This document shows, in pieces, positions 38,100 to 52,650 of a stretch of DNA of 64,000 nt. Numbering within the stretch: the first letter of the stretch is position 1; each line of letters starts with the position of its first letter. Source of the stretch: Lineolata rhizophorae (lineage: Eukaryota > Ascomycota > Dothideomycetes > Lineolatales > Lineolataceae); the NCBI GenBank assembly GCA_010093515.1, contig MU001686.1, positions 744,115 to 808,114 on the forward strand, written 5' to 3'. Under the pieces are notes generated by a model. It searched no databases. It saw only the letters and a program-made list of their open reading frames with translations, and was not told the DNA's origin. The translations under genes and the position numbers were made by a program.

Positions 38100-39902
38100 T
38101 CATCCACCCACTCCCGCGTCCGCCAAAACCTCGGCCACAAACGCCGCCACCTCCGCCGGCCTCTCCACCATGGGCAAGTGCCCGGCGTCCTCGACAACCT
38201 TCAGCTTCGCACCCGGCACCTTGGCGGCCATCTCGCGCATCTTCTCCGGCAGCGCGCCGTCGCCGGCGCCGACGACGAAGCCCGCCTTGACCTTGCACGT
38301 CGGCAGGGCGGCCTCCAAATCGTAGTCGTACAGGGCGCGCACGCCGCGCTTGAAGCCGGCCAGGCTGTTGGAGGCCACCATGCGCTTGACGCGGCGGGCC
38401 TCGCGCTCGCGGGCGCCGCCGTCGAAGCTGCCGGGCACGAACCAGCGCTGCACCGTCATCTCGGCCAGGCTCTCGCAGACCACCGGCTCCTCGTCCTCGT
38501 CCTCCTTCTCCTCCTCCTTCTCCCCATCCCCATCCCCATCCCCACCCCCAACCTCGTCCCCCTCGCGCCCCGCCGCCCCGCCCTCCACCCTCCCGACCGC
38601 GCCCTCCCCCTCCGCGACCGCGACCCGCTCCGCCCACAGCCGCGGGTTCGCCGCCGGCGCCCGCGCGTTGGTGTCGCAGGCGACGAGCGCGGCGACGCGG
38701 TCGGGCCGGGCCAGCGCCGCCGCCAGCGCCGTGGCGCCGCCCAGGCTGACGCCCACCAGCGCCGCCGCGCGCCGCACCCGCAGCGCGTCCAGCAGCGCCA
38801 CCGCGTCGGCCGCCAGCGTGGCGAGCGTCACGTCGCCGCCGCCGGGACCCGTCTCGCGCGTGCGGCCCCGCGCGTCGTACCGCAGGAAGCGGTAGCGGGC
38901 GCGGTCGGGGCGCCCCGCGGCGAGGAAGGCGGCGAGGAAGCCGTCCCAGATGGCGTAGGTGGTGAGGACCGAGTTGACGAAGAGGACGGTCGGGGCGTCG
39001 GGGGCGGGCGCGCCGGAGAGGCGGTAGGGCAGGCGCACGCCGTCGGGCGTCGTGACGTAGGACTCGATGGCGCCCGAGACGGCCGCGTCGGGCGCCGCGG
39101 CCGGCGACGGCGCCAGCGTGCGCGTGAGGCCGTCCGGAGACGTCCACGGCGCCGTCGAGGGCGCGCCCAGCGGGCCCAGGTCCCGCGGGCACGGCCCGAA
39201 CGTGTAATGCAGGCCGTAGGTGCGCAGCCTGGCCCCGCCGGCCTCGACCGCGTCCGGCAGCGCGTCGACGGTCGCGGCCTTGAGGGCGGCGTAGCTCGTC
39301 GCCGGGGCGAAGTCGTGCAGCAGCAGCGTCTTGTTGCCGGCCGCGGGCTCGCCGGCGGCGGAGCTCGCGAAGCGGCGCACGCGGCGGAAGCCCGGCGCGC
39401 CGGCCACGGCGGGGACGTGTTCGTCGCGATACCACCTGTCGAGCGCGCTCTCCCAGCCCGGCCGCGCCGCCAGCAGCACCGCCGCCACGGCGTTGCCCTG
39501 GCCTTCGTTGCGCACGTCCTCGAGCCGCGCGAACGGCTGGCCGCCCGCCGCCTCGTCCGCGTCCACCAGGTCGAACAGCATCCGCTCGACGTCGATGTCG
39601 CGCATGACGTCCGTCTCCCTCGCGCTCTTGGCCGGCGGGCCGCGCAGCCGCGCATACGGCTCCGTCGCCAGGGCGGCCATGTCGGCGACGTCGTAGACGG
39701 CCATCCACTCCGGGTCGGCCGGCGACGCCGCGACGCCGCGCGGCGCCAGGTCCGTCGCGCGGTAGCGGAACCCGTTGGCCACGAAGGGCAGCCGCAGCCG
39801 CGCCGGGCCGTGCTCGTTGTTGTACCAGTCGTGGAAGCGGGCGGGCGCGAGCGAGGGCCGCGGCTGCATCGTCACGTAGAGGATTCCGGGCGTGGGCGCC
39901 AT
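38100..39902 (-). CDS. Fusion: two EthD-like alpha/beta-barrel repeats + 3-oxoadipate enol-lactonase-type hydrolase
   Basis: 600-residue single-exon protein. Residues 1-130 and 135-240 are two related dimeric alpha/beta-barrel (EthD/ferredoxin-like) repeats: FHDWYNNEHGPARL near 23-36 and LDRWYRDEHVPAV near 154-166. Residues about 280-597 form an alpha/beta hydrolase: nucleophile Ser386 in GVSLGG, Asp548 in VVGAGDGALP and His575 in EDAGHLPM make a full triad. The hydrolase most resembles 3-oxoadipate enol-lactonases (YVTTPDGVRLPYRLSG start). A Gly/Asp/Glu-rich insert (431-472) lies in the lid region. Next to the carboxymuconate cyclase, it likely opens 3-carboxymuconolactone or its enol-lactone to 3-oxoadipate; in fungi a single hydrolase can do this step. 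The role of the barrel repeats is unknown. Very GC-rich, with long open frames on both strands. Confidence 0.87.
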   Translation of the reverse strand: MAPTPGILYVTMQPRPSLAPARFHDWYNNEHGPARLRLPFVANGFRYRATDLAPRGVAASPADPEWMAVYDVADMAALATEPYARLRGPPAKSARETDVMRDIDVERMLFDLVDADEAAGGQPFARLEDVRNEGQGNAVAAVLLAARPGWESALDRWYRDEHVPAVAGAPGFRRVRRFASSAAGEPAAGNKTLLLHDFAPATSYAALKAATVDALPDAVEAGGARLRTYGLHYTFGPCPRDLGPLGAPSTAPWTSPDGLTRTLAPSPAAAPDAAVSGAIESYVTTPDGVRLPYRLSGAPAPDAPTVLFVNSVLTTYAIWDGFLAAFLAAGRPDRARYRFLRYDARGRTRETGPGGGDVTLATLAADAVALLDALRVRRAAALVGVSLGGATALAAALARPDRVAALVACDTNARAPAANPRLWAERVAVAEGEGAVGRVEGGAAGREGDEVGGGDGDGDGEKEEEKEDEDEEPVVCESLAEMTVQRWFVPGSFDGGAREREARRVKRMVASNSLAGFKRGVRALYDYDLEAALPTCKVKAGFVVGAGDGALPEKMREMAAKVPGAKLKVVEDAGHLPMVERPAEVAAFVAEVLADAGVGG

Positions 39903-40558
39903 GGCGGGCTGGTGGAGAACCTGCCAGACGCAAGCGGGAAGTGAAGATCAGTGGGTGGGTGAGTGGGCGAGTGAGTGAGTGAGCGAGTGAGGGGGAGCCA
40001 GTGAGTGAGATTGACAACAATTGAAGCAGCGGGGCGACTCCTGGACGAGTGTTAAAATCGTCCAAGTCCAAAGCAACGGCGAAGACGCTGTTGAAAGACG
40101 GCCTGCAGCCTCAAACTAAGCTCCTATATCGGGCATGACGTAGCCACGGGGTGGGCTTTTGGGACGATGAGGCCGAATCCCGGCAGGCCCAGCGGGTCGA
40201 GCGGCGCTCGGCAACAAGGGCCGGCATTGGAGACGCGATGGCGGACACAGTAGGGCTGACTGGCCGGCGGAAGAACGTTTACGCTGCCGCGCCCAGCAGC
40301 CGGCGACAGGCGCCGCAGCCCGGCAGTCCGGGGCGGGACTGCAGGTACGGAAGACGGGGCGTGCATCTGCTGGCAAAGCGTCTGCGAGCGGGCCGTCGTC
40401 GTCTAGTGTTCACTTCACTACCCAGTTTCACTAGCCTCGACAGTGAACTCAACACGAGTCTCCTCCCACGCCGAAAGGGACGGACGGCTGAATGTCTAGC
40501 TCGGGGCATCGCGCAAAATCTACAGATACACCTCTTGCTGCGCACATCCCTGATCTAC
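39903..40558. other. Intergenic upstream of the enol-lactonase fusion
   Basis: 656 bp between the fusion gene start and the cyclase stop, both on the minus strand; presumably the fusion gene's promoter plus the cyclase 3' UTR. It contains the GAGT-type repeat listed separately. Confidence 0.5.
39951..40010. repeat. Imperfect (GTGA)n tetranucleotide repeat
   Basis: About 60 bases of GTGG/GTGA/GCGA units, 50-110 bp upstream of the fusion gene's ATG (CACT-type repeats on its coding strand). It probably lies in the 5' leader or core promoter. Confidence 0.75.
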
Positions 40559-41863
40559 CTAGTCGTACCAAATGGCATTCATTCCGAAGCCGGGCTCCTG
40601 CACCCGGCACCGCGCGACCCGGCACAGAAACTCGTCCCGCCAGCGATAGATCTCCAGCCACCCGTCCTGGTCGTCCGTCAGCGCCAGCCACTCGTCGCTC
40701 CAGTCGGCCGGGCTCACGGCGTTGGAGTGCCCGCCGCTCGTCGGCGTCGGGTTCATGCAGATCTGGCGCTCGATCTGGCCCTGCGGCCCCAGCGCGAAGG
40801 CGCTCACGTAGCCCGTCACGTCGGCCGCGTTGGCCCGCGCCGTCGCGAACAGGTAGCGGCCGGAGCGCGACACGGCCGCCACGTCGGCGCGGTACATGCG
40901 GCGGCGCGCGCGCTCGGCCGGGAACAGGTCGACGGCCGGCGGCACCAGCGGGAACGAGCGCCGCGTGTACACCGGCAGCCGGCTGCGCCCGTCCACCACG
41001 TACTCGGCCAGCGTGTTGCCGGCCTCCATGACGACGTACAGGAACGCGCCCGACGGGTGCATGGCCACCCAGCGGGGGTGGTCGCCGGGCGCGGGTGCGT
41101 CCGCCCAGCCCACCACCGCCAGCCGGCCCGAGTCGGCCTCCTTGCGGTGCACCCACACGCGGTCGGCGTACATGTCGGCGCTGTACAGGAACGCCTCGGC
41201 CGGGTCGAAGACGGTGCCGTGCACGCCCGACCCGTCGGCGTAGGCGAAGTTCTGCACGTTGGCCGCGAGGCCGCCCGTGCCGTCGACCGAGAAGACGTTG
41301 CCGTAGCCGGCGTGCTTGTAGAAGGGGTTGCCGTACACGCAGTGCGGCGGGCGCTGGGCGGCGAGCACGAAGATGGCCCGCGTGTTGGTGTCTTTGCTGG
41401 CGGCGAGGGCTGCGAGGGGGCGGAAACGGTAGAAGCTTGCTCGGTTAGATGCCATGGACTACTCCGCCGTGTAGCGGCTTCGGAGAGGACGAGGCTGGGT
41501 CTGCGTACGGTCTCCGCCGATGGGGTGCGACGAGTGGTGGGTGATCTCGGTGGGACTGGCGACCGAGAAGCTCGTCCAGGCCTTCATGGACGCGCCGTAG
41601 ATGTTCTTCTTCGCATGCTATAATAGGATGTGTGACAGATAAAAAAAGGTCAGCAACGCAGCCTTTTTCTTGCCCAGCGTTTCCCCGGCAGGGCCAATTT
41701 CCGGGCCACGCAGACTCACGTCAAAGGTCATCCACGAGATGGGCTCGTCGTGCGGGATCTCGGTCCGCTTGATGAGCTCCAGCGTCAGCTTCTCGTCGTC
41801 GAACTCGAAGCTGAAGATGGCGCCGGGCGGCGTCCAGGTGCCGACCATCAGGTGGTGCAGCAT
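40559..41863 (-). CDS. 3-carboxy-cis,cis-muconate cyclase (beta-propeller lactonizing enzyme)
   Basis: Lactonises 3-carboxy-cis,cis-muconate, the ring-fission product of protocatechuate, to 3-carboxymuconolactone. The fungal enzyme is a seven-bladed beta-propeller unrelated to bacterial versions. Three exons, 41863-41720, 41617-41509 and 41409-40559, give 367 residues, matching the Neurospora enzyme's length. The start MLHHLMVGTWTPPGAIFSF and the joins SWMTFD|HAKKNIYGA and HPIGGD|PLAASKDTNTRA all agree with that family. Conserved GDHPRWVAMHPSG and TPTSGGHSNAVSP blocks and the end EPGFGMNAIWYD are present. Intron 2 uses GTACGC. The start is divergent from the dioxygenase gene, 754 bp away. Confidence 0.96.
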
Positions 41864-42009
41864 CGCGAGCGGGCGCAGGAGCTGGCTGCAGGGAAGGGCA
41901 GCAGGAAGGCAGGCGGCAGCGGAGGAGACGAATTGGCATCGCCTGACGCGGAAGAAGGCTTCAGGAGCGGCATGGCGGCGCGGAGAGGCTATCGCGGCGA
42001 AGAAGCACG

Positions 42010-42043
42010 GAGGGCGGGGGGAGGGGGAGGAGGGGGAGAGGGA
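42010..42043 (+). promoter_or_regulatory. G-tract cluster with quadruplex potential
   Basis: Several runs of three to six G separated by one or two bases (GGAGGGCGGGGGGAGG and following) in the divergent promoter region. This fits the G3+N1-7 pattern for a G-quadruplex on the plus strand. Formation and role are untested. Confidence 0.6.
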
Positions 42044-42524
42044 CAGCAGACGGGCGGCGCAGGCCGGAAGAGCGCTTAGCCAGGGCGCCGGGCGCGGCCG
42101 AGCCGGGCCCCGCCTCCCGAGCTGGCCGCCGATGCGGGGAAGCTTGCGGCGGCGGCAATCGTCACGGCTCCCGCTGCCACTCGCGCGCGCGGCGGCTCTG
42201 GCGGCGCCGTCGCCCGTCGGAGACGGCCCACGGCAGTTCCCCTGTCTTGCCCGCCGCCAGGAGCTGCGCGGGAGCAGCGAGCGGACGCCGCGGCGCGCCG
42301 CTGCTTACGCCCATCCCGGACAGCCGACCGCATCTGCCGCTGGGCGTGCCCGGCGATGCATCATGGCACGATGCAAACCCCCCCGGGATGCCCGGCGGCC
42401 AGTCATATATAGTCCATTAGTCTCCCGTCTCAATTGACGCAGGGTCTCTGTCTTTTCTATCTGATTCAGTGAATTAATCCGTTCCCGTACGTAGCTGACC
42501 TCTTGTTTCTCTCGGTTTCTGCTC

Positions 42525-42546
42525 TGTTCTGTTCTGTTCTGTTCTT
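42525..42546 (+). repeat. (TGTTC)n pentanucleotide repeat
   Basis: Four tandem TGTTC units in the presumed leader of the dioxygenase gene, about 75 bases before its ATG. Confidence 0.85.
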
Positions 42547-42617
42547 CAATCCCCCCCATCCCTCCGCCACAGCTTCAATTCGCGATCCCAAGCACCCGCC
42601 TGGTAGCAGCAGCGACG

Positions 42618-43729
42618 ATGGCTGGCAGCGGGCACTCGTACGACCCCAACTTCACGCAGAACTGCATCGACGCCATCGGGCCCAAGGCGTCGCCGCGCAC
42701 CCGCGAAGTCATGGGCGCCCTCCTCCGCCACATCCACGACTTCGCCCGCGAGGTCGAGCTCACGACCGACGAGTGGCTCGCCGGCGTGCGCTTCGTCAAC
42801 TCCATCGGCCAGATCAGCGACAACACGCGCAACGAGGCCCACCGCGTCTCGGACATAATCGGCCTGGAATCGTGAGTGCGCCTTTATTTTTATGCCCTTT
42901 TTGTCATTCCGTCCACAGGGAGTAGAAAGTAGGAATGTGAAATGTTTCGGGGGGAAAACTGTTGCAGAGAACTTACCTCCGCAGACTCGTGGACGAGATC
43001 GCGCACAAGCACGTCAACGAGAGCGGGCAGACGCCCACCTCGTCGACCATCCTGGGCCCCTTCTGGAGCCCGCGCGCCCCCTTCCGCAACAACGGCGAGA
43101 GCATCATCGAGAGCCCGCACAGCGGCCAGGTGGCCCTGATGCACGGCAAGGTGGTGGACATGGTGACGGGGCGGCCCATCCCCGGCGCCGTCGTCGACAT
43201 CTGGCAGGCCTCGTCCAACGGCAAGTACGACTTCCAGGACCCCGAAAACCAGGTCGACAACAACCTGCGCGGCAAGTTCCGGAGCAACGAGAAGGGCGAG
43301 TATCACTTCTACTGCCTCAAGCCGACGGCGTACACCCTTCCGACCGACGGTAAGGATTTCCAAAACGCCCTTTGATTTTCTCGAGGAAGATAAAGACGGA
43401 ATGAACAGAATCATTGGCTGACCAAATTTTTTTTTCTCCATTTGCCCTCAGGCCCCGCCGGCGTCCTCTTCGACCTGCTCGACCGCAGCCCCTGGCGACC
43501 CGCCCACATCCACCTCATGATCTCGCACGACGACTACAGCCCCGTCGTCACCCAGCTGTACCCCAAGGGGGACCCGCACCTGCACGACGACTCCGTCTTC
43601 GCCGTCAAGCCCGACCTCGTCGTCGACTTCAAGCCGCGCCAGGGCGACCCCAAGGCCGAGCTCGATCTCCACTACGATATCAAGCTCGCGCCGCGCGATT
43701 CCAAGTCGGCGAGCGTGTCGAGGCTGTAG
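42618..43729 (+). CDS. Intradiol ring-cleaving dioxygenase (catechol/hydroxyquinol 1,2- or protocatechuate 3,4-type)
   Basis: Non-haem Fe(III) dioxygenase that opens a catecholic ring between the hydroxyls. Three exons, 42618-42871, 42985-43349 and 43452-43729; 298 residues. The N-terminal helical dimerisation domain (about 15-100) is joined across intron 1 as [14 protein letters not shown]. The beta-sandwich core begins at [10 protein letters not shown] (about 103-112). The four iron ligands are all in place: Tyr166 (GKYDFQDP), Tyr201 ([11 protein letters not shown]), His225 and His227 ([10 protein letters not shown]), with spacing as in catechol 1,2-dioxygenase. By sequence it is closest to the catechol/hydroxyquinol group with the N-terminal domain. 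The neighbouring carboxymuconate cyclase argues for protocatechuate as substrate, so specificity is open. No signal peptide, hence cytosolic. Confidence 0.95.
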
Positions 43730-44358
43730 AGGTGGGATGGATGGACGGGTGCGGGGGAAAATGTCTTGGTTGATATCTTGGATGATTTCAATTGGCCAAT
43801 TGAATGGGCTGCCTAGCTGCTGTAGCACTTTTTCAAAGGAAAAATATGGACGACCTGTCGCATGTGTGGAGTACAAATCTAGCTTGCTTTTAGAATGGAC
43901 GTAACGGAATCTTTAAAGCCGAGCGTATGTAGTCTACTACTAAATCCCGTCGACAATTGGAGTGATGACGGTAAAGCGCTTGCGGCAAACAATGGAGTGA
44001 AAACAAGTGCTGCGCTCTGCGTTGGAAAACGAGTCAATCGTAGAATCAAGAAACTCACCCCCGATGTCGCACCGGAAAGAATTCCGCTCTTATGACATCC
44101 AATGAGAGCAAGTTCTTGGAAATCCAAGGCTTGAGTCCGTCCGCACTATTTGAATGGACGCAGCCCTACCAAATTCCTACGTATATTTGTTTATCCCCCC
44201 CCAGCAAAATTCCTTTTCGACACCAACGACCCAAGCCCACTCTCCCAACCCCATCACACTCCACTGAACTCAACTCAACTCACTCAACCAACACTACCTA
44301 CCCAAACCACCCCCTCACCAACCAAATCCCCCCAAAACGGCCAACAACCCACCCAACA
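43730..44358. other. Intergenic and G-poor leader before the decarboxylase-like gene
   Basis: 3' flank of the dioxygenase gene, then the upstream region of the next plus-strand gene. Positions about 44200-44358 contain almost no G on the coding strand and consist of ACC/CAAC/CTCA units, typical of an unstructured 5' leader. The frame is open through it from 44092, so an N-terminal extension is possible but compositionally unlikely. Confidence 0.55.
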
Positions 44359-44997
44359 ATGCGCCTCCCCTACGCCCCCACGACCCCACCCCCCACCGCC
44401 CCCGCCACCACAACCGAAACCTACGCCCGCCTCTCCGCCCGGCGCGCGCCCCGCCCGCTCCTCCCCCTCGACCTCGCCCTCCTGCACTCGCCCCCCGTGG
44501 CCGACGGCTGGAACGCCTTCCTCGGCGCCGTCCGCGCCCGCACCGGCCTCGACCCGGCCCTCCAGGAGCTCGCCGTCTGCCGCGTCGCCGCGCTGACGGG
44601 CGCCGCCTTCGAGTGGAACGCCCACGCGCCGCTGGCGCTGCGCGCCGGCGTCGCGCCGCCGGTGCTGCGCCGGCTGCGGAGCTGGCCGCCGCGGGCCAGG
44701 GGCGCGCAACCACCGCCAGCCGACGGCGGCGATAACGACGACGATGGTCGAGGCCTGCTGGCGCCCAAGGAACGCGCCGTTGTCGACTACGCGGACCAGA
44801 TGACGCGCGACGTCGCCGTCGACGACGCCGTCTTCGCCGAGCTGCGCGAGCATTTCTCGGAGCAGGACATCGTCGAGCTGACGGCCACCATCGCCGCCTA
44901 CAACTGCGTGAGCAGGTTTCTGGTAGCCCTGGACGTGGGCGAGGTTAACGGGACCGAGTTGAAGTCTGTGGAGGAGCTGATGGAGAAGAAGGAATAG
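44359..44997 (+). CDS. Carboxymuconolactone decarboxylase family protein (AhpD-like)
   Basis: 212-residue, single-exon helical protein of the CMD/AhpD fold. In bacteria, carboxymuconolactone decarboxylase turns 4-carboxymuconolactone into the enol-lactone of 3-oxoadipate. The family block ELAVCRVAALTGAAFEWNAHAPLALRAGV (about 70-98) contains the E-W-x-x-H motif (Glu85, His89). The CxxC of peroxidase-type AhpD is absent. A second helical part, ERAVVDYADQMTRDVAVDD...FSEQDIVELTATIAAYNCVSRFL, completes the fold. I choose the Met at 44359 because it follows a good context (CCCAACAATGCG) and the upstream open frame is leader-like. Its place beside the cyclase and hydrolase supports a role in the same pathway, though many fungal CMD-like proteins have other or unknown substrates. 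Confidence 0.85.
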   Translation: MRLPYAPTTPPPTAPATTTETYARLSARRAPRPLLPLDLALLHSPPVADGWNAFLGAVRARTGLDPALQELAVCRVAALTGAAFEWNAHAPLALRAGVAPPVLRRLRSWPPRARGAQPPPADGGDNDDDGRGLLAPKERAVVDYADQMTRDVAVDDAVFAELREHFSEQDIVELTATIAAYNCVSRFLVALDVGEVNGTELKSVEELMEKKE

Positions 44998-46005: not shown

Positions 46006-49000
46006 TCAAGGAATCTTCTCAATCTCATCCCTCGTCCTCAGGTACTTGGTCGCCAGCTGGTCGCCGCCCTTCTTGCTCATCTCCATCCAGTGATGCGCCA
46101 CGCACATGGTGACGGGGTCGGCCCGCGACGGGTCCTCGCGCTTGCGGTCGCGCGCCGACAGCGCCTCGCCCTTGAACACCTCGCGCGGCTTGCTCAGTGG
46201 CATCACCATGCGCGGCACTAGGTCTGGGTGCGTCATGTACAGGATGGCCAGCTCGCGCTGCGCCGCCGCGTCGCCCTCACGCGCCGTAATGGTCAGCATG
46301 CGCGCCGCGTCCGCCATGGAGAACTTGGCGATGGGGTCCTGAGGCGGCAGCGATGCCGACGAAGCGCTCAAGTCGTTCGCGCCTTTCTCGCTGGCGCCTC
46401 CGGCTGCGGCGGAGGCCGTAGAACCGGCAGTCGCGTGCGCGTTGGCCTCCCGATTCTTGGTGTTGAGCTGCACGATATCGTCGACGACCTCCACCATGAC
46501 GCGGCAGACGTCTTGCTTCAGGCTCAGCGCGGCTAGACCCGCGTCCCAGAAGGCTTTGCCCGCGGCGCTCTTGTCGAGCATCCGCGAAGGCACAAAAGAC
46601 GCAATGTACTGGAGGTCGCGGAACAGCGTCTTGGGGCGGATGTTGGCGTCGCGGAACAAGCCTTGCAACACGTCAACAATCATGTCGGTGCTCGGTAGGA
46701 CCGCGATGGAGCGGGCGTCGCTGGCGATGGCGGTGACACCACCGCCATGCTGCTGCATGGGCGACGGCGACGGCGGGCCGTTCTGATTCATCGAGTGCGA
46801 CCGCCGCTCCTCACAATTCGCAATCGCCTCCTCGAGGTTCTGAGCGCGTGTCGTGCTCACGGCAGGATCACGTGAGCTCAACTCGGGCACCGAGCCGAGC
46901 GTGGGCGACTGCGACACAGTAGGCAGAGTCGTCTCGCGCCGAGATAAGTGCCGCCCCGAGCGAGAAGAGAGCGACGCGATGATCAGCTTCTCCAGCTCGA
47001 AGAGGGCGTGCAGCTTCGAAAAGGGATTTGGGTGTGTCGCAAACTTTCGGAGCAGACGGCGGAAGGCCATGTTGTACGGGAACTCCAGGATGCCTGATCG
47101 CTTCGCGGCAGACATACCGGAGCGAGCGGTCGCGTCGCTGGACGATGTTGAATGTTCTCCTGCCGAGAGATGTGGCAAGTCGCCTGTCGCAACGTGCTTC
47201 GCGCTCTTCATGCTCTTCATGCTCTTCTTGCGAGCTAGAGAGCGCCTGCGGCGGCGGTCCTCATCCTCCTTGCGTTGGATGCACTCCTCACCCAAGTCGC
47301 CGCCGAACCACGCGTCAGTCTCACTGCCAGCTCCAAAAACTTGGGTACCAAGGTCGCTGAGAAGCAAGCCCGTGACGGTCTGCTTAAGATCCAGCAAGAA
47401 TTTGCGCTTGTCTTCGTTGACGCTCTCGGAGTTCTTCAGCATGACAGTGCCACGTGAGGACGAGGCAGTCCGAGGGCGAATGCTGGTGGCACTCGAAGGA
47501 GACTGGGCTTGGGTCTGGAACGGCGACCAGAACGTCACCGAGGAATCAATGGTAAGAATCGGGCTCGAGCCACCGAAGTAGTCCTGGGTGTCCATAAGAT
47601 GGCCGCCCGAGCTGTACTTCGCAGAATCAAAGCTCTGTTCAGACCCGTTCCTCCCCGACATGCTGCGAAGCGTGCTAGAAGTGCCGCTCGAACCAGGGAT
47701 GAAATCAAACTTCCTCGAGCTGGGGCGAGCGTTGTTGTTGTTATTATTATTGTTGTTGTTGCTAGCGTTATTATTGCCTCCGTTCGCGCCGCCGCTACCA
47801 AGGCCGCCAAGTCCGGGCAGTGTCTCGTACTCCTCATCACCGGCAATGCTTAGCGTTCCGACGCCAGTCAGGAAGAGATCGCCCTTTTGGCGGCCGCTGT
47901 CGAGGATTTCCTTGTCGCGGCGGTAGAGTTCGCTCGACCAGAGCACGGGACCATCCATGATTCCGTGGGCAACAAGTTTGTTGACGCACTTGTCGACCTC
48001 GAGGCAGAATCGGTGAATGCGCTCCTCTCCTTTGCAGAAGCCGTTCTCAATGCCGTACTGAGAGAGCCAGCCGGACGTGATCTCCGACTGCTCGTCCGAG
48101 AGTTTGTTCGGGCCCCCGTGATCAGGCGACGCCGCCATTAGATCGTAAACCTGCACCTCGGTTTTCAGGAGGTAGTTGCTCGCAGCAGGCTTCGGCGCGT
48201 TGCGGTGACGCTGGTGCTGCTGGTGGACTCCGGGGATCGGCCTGCCATCGGCGGTCTTGGTCGGCTGGCCCATGACCTTCAGAGCCACGGCCACGTTCTT
48301 CGCCTCGTCGTACACGGCCGAGTTGCGCACATCGGTGATGTACCACATCTTGTCCCGAAGGTTCTTCAAAGCGAGCATCATGTCCTCGATGGTCGAGTCG
48401 TGACGCTCCTGTGACTGCTTGAGCCAGACGAACCAGGCTTCGAACTCTTCGATGGCAGTGGCCGACTTGCTCAACGAATCCCGGGGGCCGCGCGAGAAAT
48501 AATTGAGCAGGGACGCATACCCGTTCCGAGTGAGACTAGGAACGGACAACCGCCGGAGCTGTTGCAGGGTCTTGAAGTAGAGATGTGCATTGACAAAATC
48601 AGACCTAGCCTGACACTGCTGGGTTGCGGCTTCCAACATCGTGATCAAGACGGACTGTTTCTCGTCGCGGGCATGGTGATGGTGCTGCTGCGGGCTTTGG
48701 TGTTGGGAGGATGACCGATGGCGACTACTAGCTCCAACGCTAGAAGTGCCCTTCTGAGTCGAGGCGAGCAAATTCGTCAGCTGGCTCTGGCTATGGTAGG
48801 GGTTCTTGGAGACTGGCTTCTCCGAGAAGGGCGCATGCTCTTCGGCTGGTGGCAGGGCTCTGTTGCCGACGCTATCGCTAGCATCCAACCTCGCGTCCCG
48901 TCGAATGGTGGACGTCCGATTGCTGAACCCCTTGGATTCGCTCTCCGGTGCCAACTCCTTGGGAATTTCGTACTCTTCCACTAGCTTGGCGATGTTCTCC

Positions 49001-51771
49001 TTCAGTAGATGGTAGTCCGTCTCCAGCTGCATCCTCTCAGCTGGGCCGTCATCATCCTCATCACTGTCGGTATCGGCCGAGTCTTCATCCAATTCCTCGT
49101 CTTCGTCCTCGAAATCCTTCCGCATTCTCGTCCGCAGCTCCTTCCCGTCCGGCGAAACATAGAGGACGGACCAACGTTCTGCGCATGGGTGGCACGTCCC
49201 GGAAGTGGCCTCCACACCAAGGATACGGCTCATTTCTGAGCACGCCATCCTTAGGAGGCGGCCGTATTCCTCGGTAGGAGCGACCTTGGTGGTGTTCCCA
49301 CCAACCTCCCCGCTGCCGGGGAATAGGCTTCCGTTGGGTTCCCCACCGCGCCCGGCCGGCTCGAGCAGAGGCTCCCGCGACGTCTGATCGCTGGTGACCG
49401 ACGAAGCGCTCATGCTCAGAATGGAGCTCGCATCTCCACCTGCACTCGCGCTGTTGGCGCCGAGCGTGGCCGAAGAAGGAGCACGGAAAGGCATGGAAGC
49501 GCCAGACATGGACGAAGCACCCGACGCAAGCCCGCCTCCCTGTCGCAGCTGCTGTGGCAGGTCTTTATCCAACTGACTGGAAGGCGGACGGCGTTCCGGA
49601 AAGAGTGCGTTGATGAGGGTATAGATATCAGCAGGGCAAACGACAAGGAAAGGCTGCACTTCGACAGTCTCGCGGGGAGAAGTGATTGCCTTTGCGGGAA
49701 GAAGAACTGGCGGTTTCGTATGAGGGCGGTTGCTCTTGAACCTAGCCAAAATGTTTTCGATGTGCGTCTTGATCTCGGGTAGCACATTGCCGTGTTGTTT
49801 CCTGAGCTCCAAAGTTAGCCAAAACCATCCGTTTTGGCGGCGGTCCGAATATACTTGCCAGTTGTAGGTCATATCAGCTACCGCTTTGTGGGCGCGGAGA
49901 GCGATCTCCTTGAGAATTCTTTGCCGCGCGTGCTCCGAAATGTGATAACCAGTCATGATCCCATGCGACTGGCGGGGTATGTTAGCAGATCTGACTCCAG
50001 CTCATCCACGAAAAGCCCGGCTACATACCTCTGGATGAATAATGGCATTAAGCAAGAACGTGGAAAAGAACCAGCGCGAAACAATAAAGGTTTGAGCGAT
50101 ACGTTGATGCCTCTTGCTAGAATCCTCTAGTTTGTGAATAATAGCGGTGCCGAGTTCCAAAACGCCGTCCGGAATGCCGCCCGCGCTAGGCTCGTCATCA
50201 ATTACCTCGAAAAGCCTCTTCACGGCGCGCTCGTAAAACTCATCCGCGGCAATGGTGTCCTTTGAGTTGCGCGAGTCGGCCTGACCCCTTGACCGGAGGA
50301 ACTGGTCGTCGGGCTTGTCCAGGATGAACTGGCCTTCCTGCAGGACTTGCATCAGGTACAACTCCAGGTTCGCCTTGCCCGGCCACTCGCGCATCCCGGT
50401 CCAGGCGTCCAGGACGATCTTGATAAACTTGTCACTCCCTGGCTTGGCCTCGACGATGAGCCTCGCGCAGGCTGTGGACCACGCTTCCGTACGGCGGAGA
50501 TCCTCGGCGGAATCCGGGCCCGAGGAATTCGCAAAAATGGTATAAATCAACGCGGAAAGAGGGTCGTGCCTCTGAAACGACAACAAACGTTCTACGGGGT
50601 TGGGTACCTGGGGAGTCGGCTTCTGCGCCGAGCTCCCTACGCCCTTGCTCCGGCCTCCCTGAAGGGCCATGACGGAATCGATGGGGTCCAACGTTGGGCG
50701 AAACGACGTGAGCGAAGCAAGCTCCTGCTGCGAGAGGCTCGTGAGACGGGCGGCAAGGAAGTCCGGATTAGTGCGGATTTCGGAGATGAAGGTCAGAAAC
50801 TCGTCCCTCGTCGACGAGGGAAGTTCATGCATGAAGGTTGAAAAGGACGAAGCCGAGGCTAAGGACGAAGAATTTTGGTAAATTCTGTCCCCGCTGCCTG
50901 CAGCTCTGGAGAACTTGCTCGGCGTCGACTTGCTGAGCTCCAAATCGGGCTCGAGCAAGGCGAATTGCCGGGTAGCCTCGCACGAGCTCCTAACGTCGTG
51001 GATGGCATTGAAGAGGGTGGCAAAGTGCCTCTTCTCGTCAGTTTTAAAATTGTCAACCAAAGTTCGATGGGCTAGCTCCCCGACGTGCAACAGTCGTGCC
51101 GAGAGCGCGCTGGACACCAGCCATCTGTGGAGCCGGACGCGCGCATGGTTTCTCTTTTGTTCCTGATACCGCTGCAGGCGGATCAGGTGGGCGAGCTCCG
51201 CTAGAGAAGTGGAGGAGGTTGGTACTGCTGAAGTAGGCAGGTACGCCTCGGTGTATTGGGAGGTATCGTGAGGCAGGAGACGCGGCAAGCGGCCGGCAGG
51301 GGCCGAGGCCGACGGAGGTAATGAAGGACGCAGGTGCGAATCAACGACTTGCGCGCTGTGGTGGTGAGAGTAGCTGTTGGTGCTGGCGCCGGGGGTGCCG
51401 CCGCCAAGGCTGTTGCTACGGAGGGGGTGGCCGTGGACGTGCCCGTGGCCTACGTTCGCTATAAACCTTTCGTCTTCGACAGGATTCCGGCCCAGTCTAC
51501 TACCCATAGTCGAAGTTCGCGAACCTGGAGACGACGACCGAGGGGGGCTCGACGGGCGCGGAGCTGCTGCTGCTGCTGCTGCTGCGGCGGCGGCGGGAGC
51601 TTCTTGGGAGGGAGAGTCATGGAACTCCGGCGAGTGATGCTGCTGCTGCTGCTGCGGCGGCGGCGGCGGGGGCGGCGACGGGCTTCTAGAAGAGAGGTGG
51701 GTGATGGTGGGAGAGACGGCTGCTGGCGGGCGAGCGGGCGATAGAAAAAGACCGTTAGTGAATGCCAACAC
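46006..51771 (-). CDS. Large RasGAP-like cytoplasmic protein (1,901 residues)
   Basis: Two exons, 51771-50029 and 49968-46006, joined as NAIIHPE|SHGIMTGYHISEHARQ through a 60-nt intron. The first about 190 residues are low complexity (poly-Pro, Gln, Ala, Ser, His). Residues about 195-660 are helical. The part ending RWFFSTFLLNAIIHPE|SHGIMTGYHISEHARQRILKEIALRAHKAV resembles the C-terminal end of a Ras GTPase-activating domain, with the N-P/H-P-E turn and following helices, but I see no convincing arginine finger. A long middle has an acidic run (EDEDEELDEDSADTDSDEDDD), a conserved helical block (RSDFVNAHLYFKTLQQLRRLS) and an Asn homopolymer. The C-terminus has a Sel1/TPR-like GDAAAQRELAILYM. 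It could regulate Ras/Rho/Rab signalling; this is tentative. The start may lie further upstream. Confidence 0.75.
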
Positions 51772-52650
51772 ATCGCACAGGGCCAGTGCATAAGGCCGGG
51801 CAGCGCCCGCGCAGCCCTATTAGAGCCGGGGCCTATTGTAGGCGAGCGAAGAGGCTCGGGCCAGGTTTTTGGGGGGGAGGGGGTTAGGGAGGAGCGGCAG
51901 CGGGGCAGGCGGCCGTCGGGAGCACAAGGACTCGAGAGGGCGACTGAGCGAGTGGTGGGTTGGCAGGGCAAGGGGCAAGGCAGTGCAGTGAGTGAGCGGG
52001 CGAGCAGCCTTGACTAGTGAACGTACGCGGAGTCGAATGGCCCGCCAGCTGCGGCGACGACGCCGACGATAGATGGCTCCGCCGCATGGCGAAGCGACAA
52101 CGGACGCTGGTGCGCTGGAGGGCGCGAGCGGCTGGCCCGGGCGAGGCTACTGGAGGAGGCGGCGCGCAACGCAGGCGGGCGACGGGGGCATGGCGCGCGA
52201 GGGCGTCGTCGTGCGGGCGGGAGCGGGCGAGGAGCGCGCGGCGGCGGCGGAGGCGGAGGTGGACGACGATGCTCTCGTGGCGGGCGGCGCGTTATTGGCG
52301 ATGGCGGCGGCGATGGGGGCGGGCGGCAGCAGGTGTGCGCTGGCACTCGGCGATGGGTCGCGGCGGGAAGGCGCCTCGACCGCCCACGGCCCCGTGCTCC
52401 CGACTGGGGTCGCTCTTGCCCGCTGGGGACGGCCCGGCCTACTTATCGATACCGCGCCTGGCACAGCGGTATGCAGGCACTGTACGTACCTACAGCACGC
52501 AGCGCCGTGGAGGTGAGTCTCCTTGCTTCTTGCGTCCCTGGCCTGGCCCTGTTTCTGTTTCTGCCGCTCTTCCTTTTCTCCCGGTGTTTGTTTCAGACTG
52601 CCGGGGAAACGTACACCCCCCAACAGGAGCTGTACTGTACTGTGCCATAC

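Follow-up and report, generated by a model that had tools for sequence, protein, structure and literature searches.

The window analysed here, a 64,000-nucleotide stretch of contig MU001686.1 from the ascomycete Lineolata rhizophorae (GenBank assembly GCA_010093515.1, positions 744,115 to 808,114), holds four intact genes, termed g1 to g4, within its positions 38100-44997 (6.9 kb), which very probably make up a pathway from protocatechuate to 3-oxoadipate. They form two divergent arms, the minus-strand pair g1 and g2 and the plus-strand pair g3 and g4, and two of the four have introns. The following features can be recognized:

38100-39902, minus strand: g1, one exon, 600 amino acids, 63 kDa; ChdA-like, with an N-half (residues 1 to ~240) and a PcaD-like C-half (residues ~276-600)
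39147-39902, minus strand: the stretch of g1 encoding the N-half, a predicted tandem dimeric alpha/beta barrel (AlphaFold model and WYxxEHxP motif)
40559-41863, minus strand: g2, exons 41720-41863, 41509-41617 and 40559-41409, 367 amino acids; putative 3-carboxymuconate cyclase
41864-42617, 754 bp: putative divergent promoter region between g2 and g3, delimited by the gene models and assigned by position
42618-43729, plus strand: g3, exons 42618-42871, 42985-43349 and 43452-43729, 298 amino acids; intradiol dioxygenase with an N-terminal domain
44359-44997, plus strand: g4, one exon, 212 amino acids, 22.9 kDa; protein of the carboxymuconolactone decarboxylase (CMD)/AhpD fold, PF02627

Splice sites were placed manually by GT/AG and reading frame, with the solved Neurospora crassa cyclase 1JOF as a guide for g2, and the two GT-AG introns in each of g2 and g3 indicate that the DNA is fungal. 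These gene models bear out a preliminary description of four adjacent genes in this interval, and the residues and Pfam domains behind its catalytic motifs in g1 to g3 and its family motif in g4 could all be located.

The firmest assignment is that of g2, whose product is 66% identical to 1JOF (E value 3.7e-174), matches PF10282 at or above its gathering score and has H148, R197, E213 and R276 at positions corresponding to what we take to be the active site of 1JOF. By its sequence it would be a 3-carboxymuconate cyclase of the N. crassa and CmcA type; for comparison with the 66%, an identity of 67% is given for CmcA of Aspergillus niger by Sgro et al. (PMC10406623). No relatives of g2 were found in GTDB or IMG/VR contigs.

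The product of g1 matches PF00561 and, barely, EthD (PF07110, 22.3 against a gathering score of 22). Its C-half is PcaD-like, scoring 144.7 bits on TIGR02427 (below the cut-off of 255.85), with S386 and H575 as hydrolase residues and D548 as the likely acid. In its make-up, g1 resembles ChdA of A. niger, a bifunctional 3-carboxymuconolactone hydrolase/decarboxylase of ~61 kDa that combines an N-terminal part with an enol-lactonase-like hydrolase domain, the comparison being with the published description rather than with the ChdA sequence (PMC10406623). The earlier label of an enol-lactonase fusion thus captured the lactonase-like half and was too narrow for a protein of the ChdA type. An acidic, glycine-rich low-complexity insert at ~38470-38610 splits the hydrolase half.

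In g4, which matches PF02627 at or above its gathering score, the family motif is kept as E70 and E85-W-x-x-H89. The CxxC of redox AhpD proteins is absent, the only cysteines being at 74 and 183, and alanine and glutamate occupy the CAYC site of the solved relative 2IJC; a redox-AhpD role was rejected on the lack of CxxC. A PcaC role was likewise rejected, since no PcaC model in NCBIfam matches g4, the models that do so at E <= 1 being those for YciW-related and peroxidase-related proteins and the AhpD domain. Of the earlier term carboxymuconolactone-decarboxylase-like, the family therefore stands and the bacterial PcaC role is unsupported, for the lactone formed in fungi is the 3-carboxy isomer, which is not the substrate of PcaC (PMC10406623). 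A bacterial-type route, in which g4 would be a PcaC-like 4-carboxymuconolactone decarboxylase and g1 only an enol-lactonase, has the name of the CMD family and the classic bacterial order of steps in its favour; it is barely credible against the missing PcaC match, the identification of the A. niger CmcA product as 3-carboxymuconolactone by nuclear magnetic resonance and the absence of a growth effect when the PcaC-like NRRL3_08340 of A. niger is deleted (PMC10406623). Instead, g4 is probably the counterpart of the AhpD-domain protein NRRL3_00837 of A. niger and AN5232 of Aspergillus nidulans, as judged by its fold, its similar size (22.9 versus 25.5 kDa) and its position.

The same types of enzyme, including a two-part ChdA-like protein and a small AhpD-like protein, serve protocatechuate catabolism in A. 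niger, where PrcA, CmcA and ChdA suffice to convert protocatechuate to 3-oxoadipate in vitro, while NRRL3_00837 is essential for growth on protocatechuate and has no effect in vitro (PMC10406623). The resemblance of the present set to these three sufficient enzymes and the essential AhpD-like protein supports the protocatechuate-to-3-oxoadipate route first proposed for it from inspection. Accordingly arranged, g3 would open the ring of protocatechuate to give 3-carboxy-cis,cis-muconate, g2 would close this to 3-carboxymuconolactone, and g1 together with g4 would carry the latter to 3-oxoadipate.

For g3, which matches PF04444 and PF00775 at or above their gathering scores and has Y166, Y201, H225 and H227 as iron ligands, sequence leaves the substrate unsettled, and it is the neighbouring genes that argue for protocatechuate and hence for a PrcA-type role. 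Among solved structures it comes closest to PnpC and to enzymes of the hydroxyquinol type, including a chlorohydroxyquinol dioxygenase; its nearest plasmid relative (48.7%, Azospirillum, L007:5977-11239) lies in an operon with catC, muconate cycloisomerase and pcaD, a context that counsels caution in reading the substrate from sequence. Together with the N-terminal domain that places g3 in the catechol/hydroxyquinol-type family, and with a barrel fold in g1 that would suit a muconolactone isomerase, this might suggest a catechol or hydroxyquinol branch, with g3 acting on one of these compounds, g1 as a muconolactone isomerase plus enol-lactonase and g4 unrelated. Such a branch is improbable: g2 is a 3-carboxymuconate enzyme, there would be no carboxyl for a CMD protein to act on, the ChdA of A. 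niger acts on a carboxylated lactone (PMC10406623) and the catechol genes of A. nidulans are different ones, namely AN3895, AN4061 and AN4531 (PMC12388069).

The N-half of g1, the ChdA counterpart of which was published as an uncharacterized decarboxylase, is here newly predicted to be a tandem dimeric alpha/beta barrel. AlphaFold run on g1 by itself reached a pLDDT of only 34, whereas the N-half with a 55-row alignment gave a tandem barrel at a pLDDT of 83.6 and a pTM of 0.83, with a tail (residues 239-252) below a pLDDT of 50. The alignment combines the window with 54 of 80 bacterial loci described below, the other 26 having been excluded, L042 for its longer open reading frame (ORF) and the rest for size. 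The motif WYxxEHxP occurs twice, at residues 26 and 157, and F23, W26, Y27, H31, P33, R46, Y70, H162, R177 and A210 are invariant. EthD was found in 52 and DUF4286 in 38 of the 55 rows, with ABM also present in relatives, and a tblastn search of plasmids retrieved bacterial DUF4286 proteins (17 records at E <= 1). A profile search of solved structures with the same alignment produced five weak matches, to four efflux pumps and the small protein 2FTR (E 0.18), so that the fold is called from the AlphaFold model together with Foldseek. Among the best 50 Foldseek matches listed are an anthrone-oxidase-like protein, a bacterial chalcone isomerase, sulfur oxygenase reductase, chlorite dismutase and coproheme decarboxylase. 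Muconolactone isomerase itself has the dimeric alpha/beta barrel fold, and the predicted N-half would join it on this level, by way of its match to other tandem barrels. The chalcone isomerase, that of Eubacterium ramulus, is among the top solved folds and offers a parallel: it too has two ferredoxin-like domains, and its His33, a general base that abstracts the substrate proton (PMC9694015), might be likened to the invariant His31 of the N-half, although the two proteins differ in substrate and are 13-14% identical. Among the papers listed for DUF4286, none seems, from the listing, to concern the function proposed here for the N-half.

The chemistry of the last steps, as reasoned here, offers a place for each of these parts. 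In 3-carboxymuconolactone, the ring carries a proton at C4 and a vinylic carboxyl at C3; removal of the proton and a move of the double bond give a carboxy-enol-lactone, hydrolysis of which yields a keto acid whose C3 carboxyl is in the beta position relative to the ketone, and loss of CO2 from this leads to 3-oxoadipate. Three chemical functions thus match three parts: the N-half, the C-half and g4. The N-half would remove the C4 proton and shift the ring double bond, much as muconolactone isomerase does on muconolactone; the C-half would hydrolyse the resulting carboxy-enol-lactone; and the C3 carboxyl of the beta-keto acid so formed would be removed by g4 in the cell and lost unaided as CO2 in vitro. 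This division between an isomerase in the N-half and a decarboxylase in g4 falls just short of an even bet. In the published assay, the rate was followed by absorbance at 230 nm and the products were identified after HCl and ethyl acetate extraction (PMC10406623), a procedure that does not separate enzymatic from spontaneous decarboxylation; if CO2 is lost spontaneously in the tube, it becomes understandable that cells depend on the AhpD-like protein and the reaction in vitro does not.

The same pathway might alternatively run, as proposed by Sgro et al., with the N-half of ChdA itself as the decarboxylase and g4 as an accessory or regulatory protein. For this speak the conversion of 3-carboxymuconolactone to 3-oxoadipate by recombinant ChdA alone, with neither product nor rate altered by NRRL3_00837, and the return of the regulator FapR by a structure search with NRRL3_00837 (PMC10406623). 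Coproheme decarboxylase is likewise a tandem barrel and hence compatible with a decarboxylating N-half. Yet the assay could not tell spontaneous from enzymatic CO2 loss, and the pairing of a g4-type CMD with a relative of the N-half in 24 of the 29 near bacterial loci fits enzymes of one route better than it does a fungal regulator; coproheme decarboxylase, moreover, uses its own haem substrate. On balance a decarboxylating N-half appears rather unlikely.

These bacterial loci come from a scan of GTDB with a five-sequence profile of the N-half, in which the best 80 of 185 relatives were kept as loci; the presence of other genes was judged by bit-score thresholds set by the analyst and later recounted at E 1e-6. 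In the group of 29 actinobacterial loci that stand closest to the N-half, CMD genes and PcaR/PcaU-type regulators are found in 24 each, a DctA-type transporter in 21 and an amidohydrolase like 4-sulfomuconolactone hydrolase in 13, and in 12 of the 29 the CMD is 45-52% identical to g4. All four are absent from the 44 more distant loci, even at E 1e-6, an imperfect control since these loci belong to other taxa, ten of them are under 7 kb and most of the probes came from module-bearing loci; an SDR gene occurs in 13 of the 44 at E 1e-6 and is hence not distinctive of the near loci. A representative arrangement (L024:1028-6636) comprises a DctA-type transporter, a g4-like CMD, an SDR, an amidohydrolase, a PcaR/PcaU-type regulator and the tandem-barrel protein, with similar sets in L015, L020, L022, L023, L025, L027, L030, L031, L034 and L035; no description of such a set was found in the literature searched. 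These loci have no dioxygenase or cyclase relatives, as if they served imported lactone acids. Of the single representatives scored for each type, those of the regulator and the DctA transporter lay above the model cut-offs and those of the amidohydrolase and PcaD-like hydrolase below them, the figures for L024 being 316 bits on TIGR02431 (cut-off 285) for the regulator and 229 bits (cut-off 500) for the amidohydrolase.

In the eight proteobacterial loci (seven of the 80 plus L004), a CMD is present in six and a hydrolase adjoins the barrel gene in all. A second, PcaD-like hydrolase is found in three of the eight (L059, L081 and L087) and also in L001, whereas the ORF counted as PcaD-like in L004, L056, L062 and L071 is the same as that of the other hydrolase; a CoA-transferase pair in L081 has model matches far below cut-off. 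On the Massilia putida plasmid, a DUF4286 gene is flanked on either side by a hydrolase gene, with a CMD gene adjoining, and the order hydrolase, barrel, PcaD-like hydrolase, CMD is shared by Massilia, Lichenibacterium and Azorhizobium, such that the fungal g1 resembles the middle two of these genes fused into one. The genome-wide top match to g4 fell inside the locus, as judged by coordinates, in all 14 genomes examined, which had been picked for having a CMD in the locus, with a near tie in G001; the best match to the g1 C-half did so in three of six (G012, G013 and G014). All 31 of the 31 CMDs that are linked to a relative of the N-half keep the glutamate and EWxxH pattern of g4. In Lichenibacterium minor, the genome that holds L059, a second pair of CMD and hydrolase lies on another contig (G012:C170:5413-6734), and in Variovorax a g4 relative (45%, L005:5881-6402) occurs without a barrel gene, the next ORF resembling, by eye, a tripartite-transporter binding protein.

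Several observations, besides the affinities of g3, the fold of coproheme decarboxylase and the imperfect distant control, weigh against the account favoured here. By sequence the N-half does not belong to the muconolactone isomerase family, Pfam giving EthD for it and DUF4286 or ABM for its relatives, and muconolactone isomerase is not among the best 50 Foldseek matches listed for its model. A CMD is lacking in five of the 29 near actinobacterial loci (L026, L029, L032, L033 and L036), a hydrolase like the g1 C-half in all 29, and relatives of g2 or g3 beside the bacterial module in all 80; the best C-half match lies outside the locus in three of six genomes (G002, G007 and G015), and L005 and L006 contain g4 relatives with no relative of the N-half. 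In A. niger, NRRL3_00837 alone catalysed none of the steps, and its deletion yielded no detected intermediate and worse growth than that of chdA, while for the A. nidulans AN5232 deletion intermediates up to 3-carboxymuconolactone are reported (PMC10406623); were the decarboxylase to act downstream, a tricarboxylic keto acid would be expected instead, with which such a build-up fits poorly. The whole of the favoured explanation, a clustered protocatechuate route with a split isomerase/lactonase/decarboxylase step, can be regarded as reasonably probable. Its extension must be put more tentatively, as a conjecture that may well fail: a three-part module for 3-carboxymuconolactone might be common to fungi and bacteria, comprising a tandem-barrel isomerase, a lactonase and a beta-keto-acid decarboxylase of the CMD/AhpD fold, with ChdA as the fungal fusion of the first two, g4 and NRRL3_00837 as the retained third, the essential role of which is hidden by spontaneous decarboxylation, and the bacterial versions as operons scavenging lactone acids of other microbes.

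With several adjacent genes of one pathway, four in 6.9 kb, the locus answers to the usual notion of a metabolic cluster, and chance adjacency of four genes of so short a route seems very unlikely. In A. niger the corresponding genes are in three places, with prcA near chdA as judged from locus tags, and in A. nidulans and Scedosporium the genes of the same pathway are reported as not clustered (PMC8283699), in keeping with the largely dispersed arrangement in Aspergillus mentioned in the preliminary description; Scedosporium has clusters for catechol, hydroxyquinol and gentisate (PMC8283699). Partial clustering of the fungal pathway is already known from the Ceratocystidaceae, in which a carboxymuconate cyclase lies upstream of CDO2, an intradiol dioxygenase with an N-terminal domain as here, though the likeness ends with these two genes, none of the remaining neighbours named in the figure legend being of the g1 or g4 type (PMC8896014). 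The bacterial PcaDC and PcaCD fusions of NCBIfam also join a PcaD-like hydrolase to a domain of the same route, as g1 does, and differ in that the partner in g1 is a tandem barrel and the CMD-like g4 is separate. A 3-oxoadipate cluster reportedly exists in Candida parapsilosis. No description of the present four-gene set was found in the literature searched, and Martins et al. 2019, on ascomycete clusters, may hold one.

Adjacency without joint function, the clustering being a lineage accident, would accord with the lack of a recognized cluster-borne regulator or transporter, common in such clusters and not required, and of any 8-mer common to all three intergenic regions. It is nonetheless very improbable in view of the packing of a short route's four genes into 6.9 kb, the recurrence of the cyclase-dioxygenase pair in the Ceratocystidaceae (PMC8896014) and the linkage, in bacteria, of relatives of g4 and of both halves of g1.

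The cluster by itself is a modest addition to the known fungal catabolic clusters. Its interest lies in two points left open by PMC10406623, the nature of the N-half of ChdA and the reason why NRRL3_00837 is essential yet inert in vitro: a g4-type gene adjoins the other genes of the route in a further fungus, relatives of the same parts are linked in bacterial loci independently of fungi, and a specific prediction follows, that of an isomerase plus a separate decarboxylase. For the catabolism of protocatechuate, a lignin-derived compound, the bacterial relatives thereby suggest roles for two poorly understood proteins of the route.

The intergenic gaps of 653, 754 (the divergent one) and 629 bp contain only mechanical ORFs; no regulator is proposed for the cluster, since CGG(n)CCG matches, counted without a shuffled control, are numerous in such GC-rich stretches and no 8-mer is common to the three. 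No transcription factor or transporter was recognized in the 24 scanned ORFs outside the cluster, a scan that may have missed intron-rich genes. Those neighbours that could be recognized have housekeeping roles: a COG2-like ORF, SF3a60, a DEAD-box helicase, a polyprenyl synthase, a syntaxin-6-type SNARE and TRA1. On the minus strand at 46006-51816 lie two long open stretches (1331 and 604 amino acids) with no Pfam match above gathering score, perhaps parts of one large gene. GC content at third positions reaches 0.96 in g1 (38103-39947) and the long exon of g2 (40562-41458), compared with 0.83-0.90 in g3, 0.78 in the frame of g4, 0.91 in the polyprenyl synthase and 0.62-0.85 in most other ORFs of the window.

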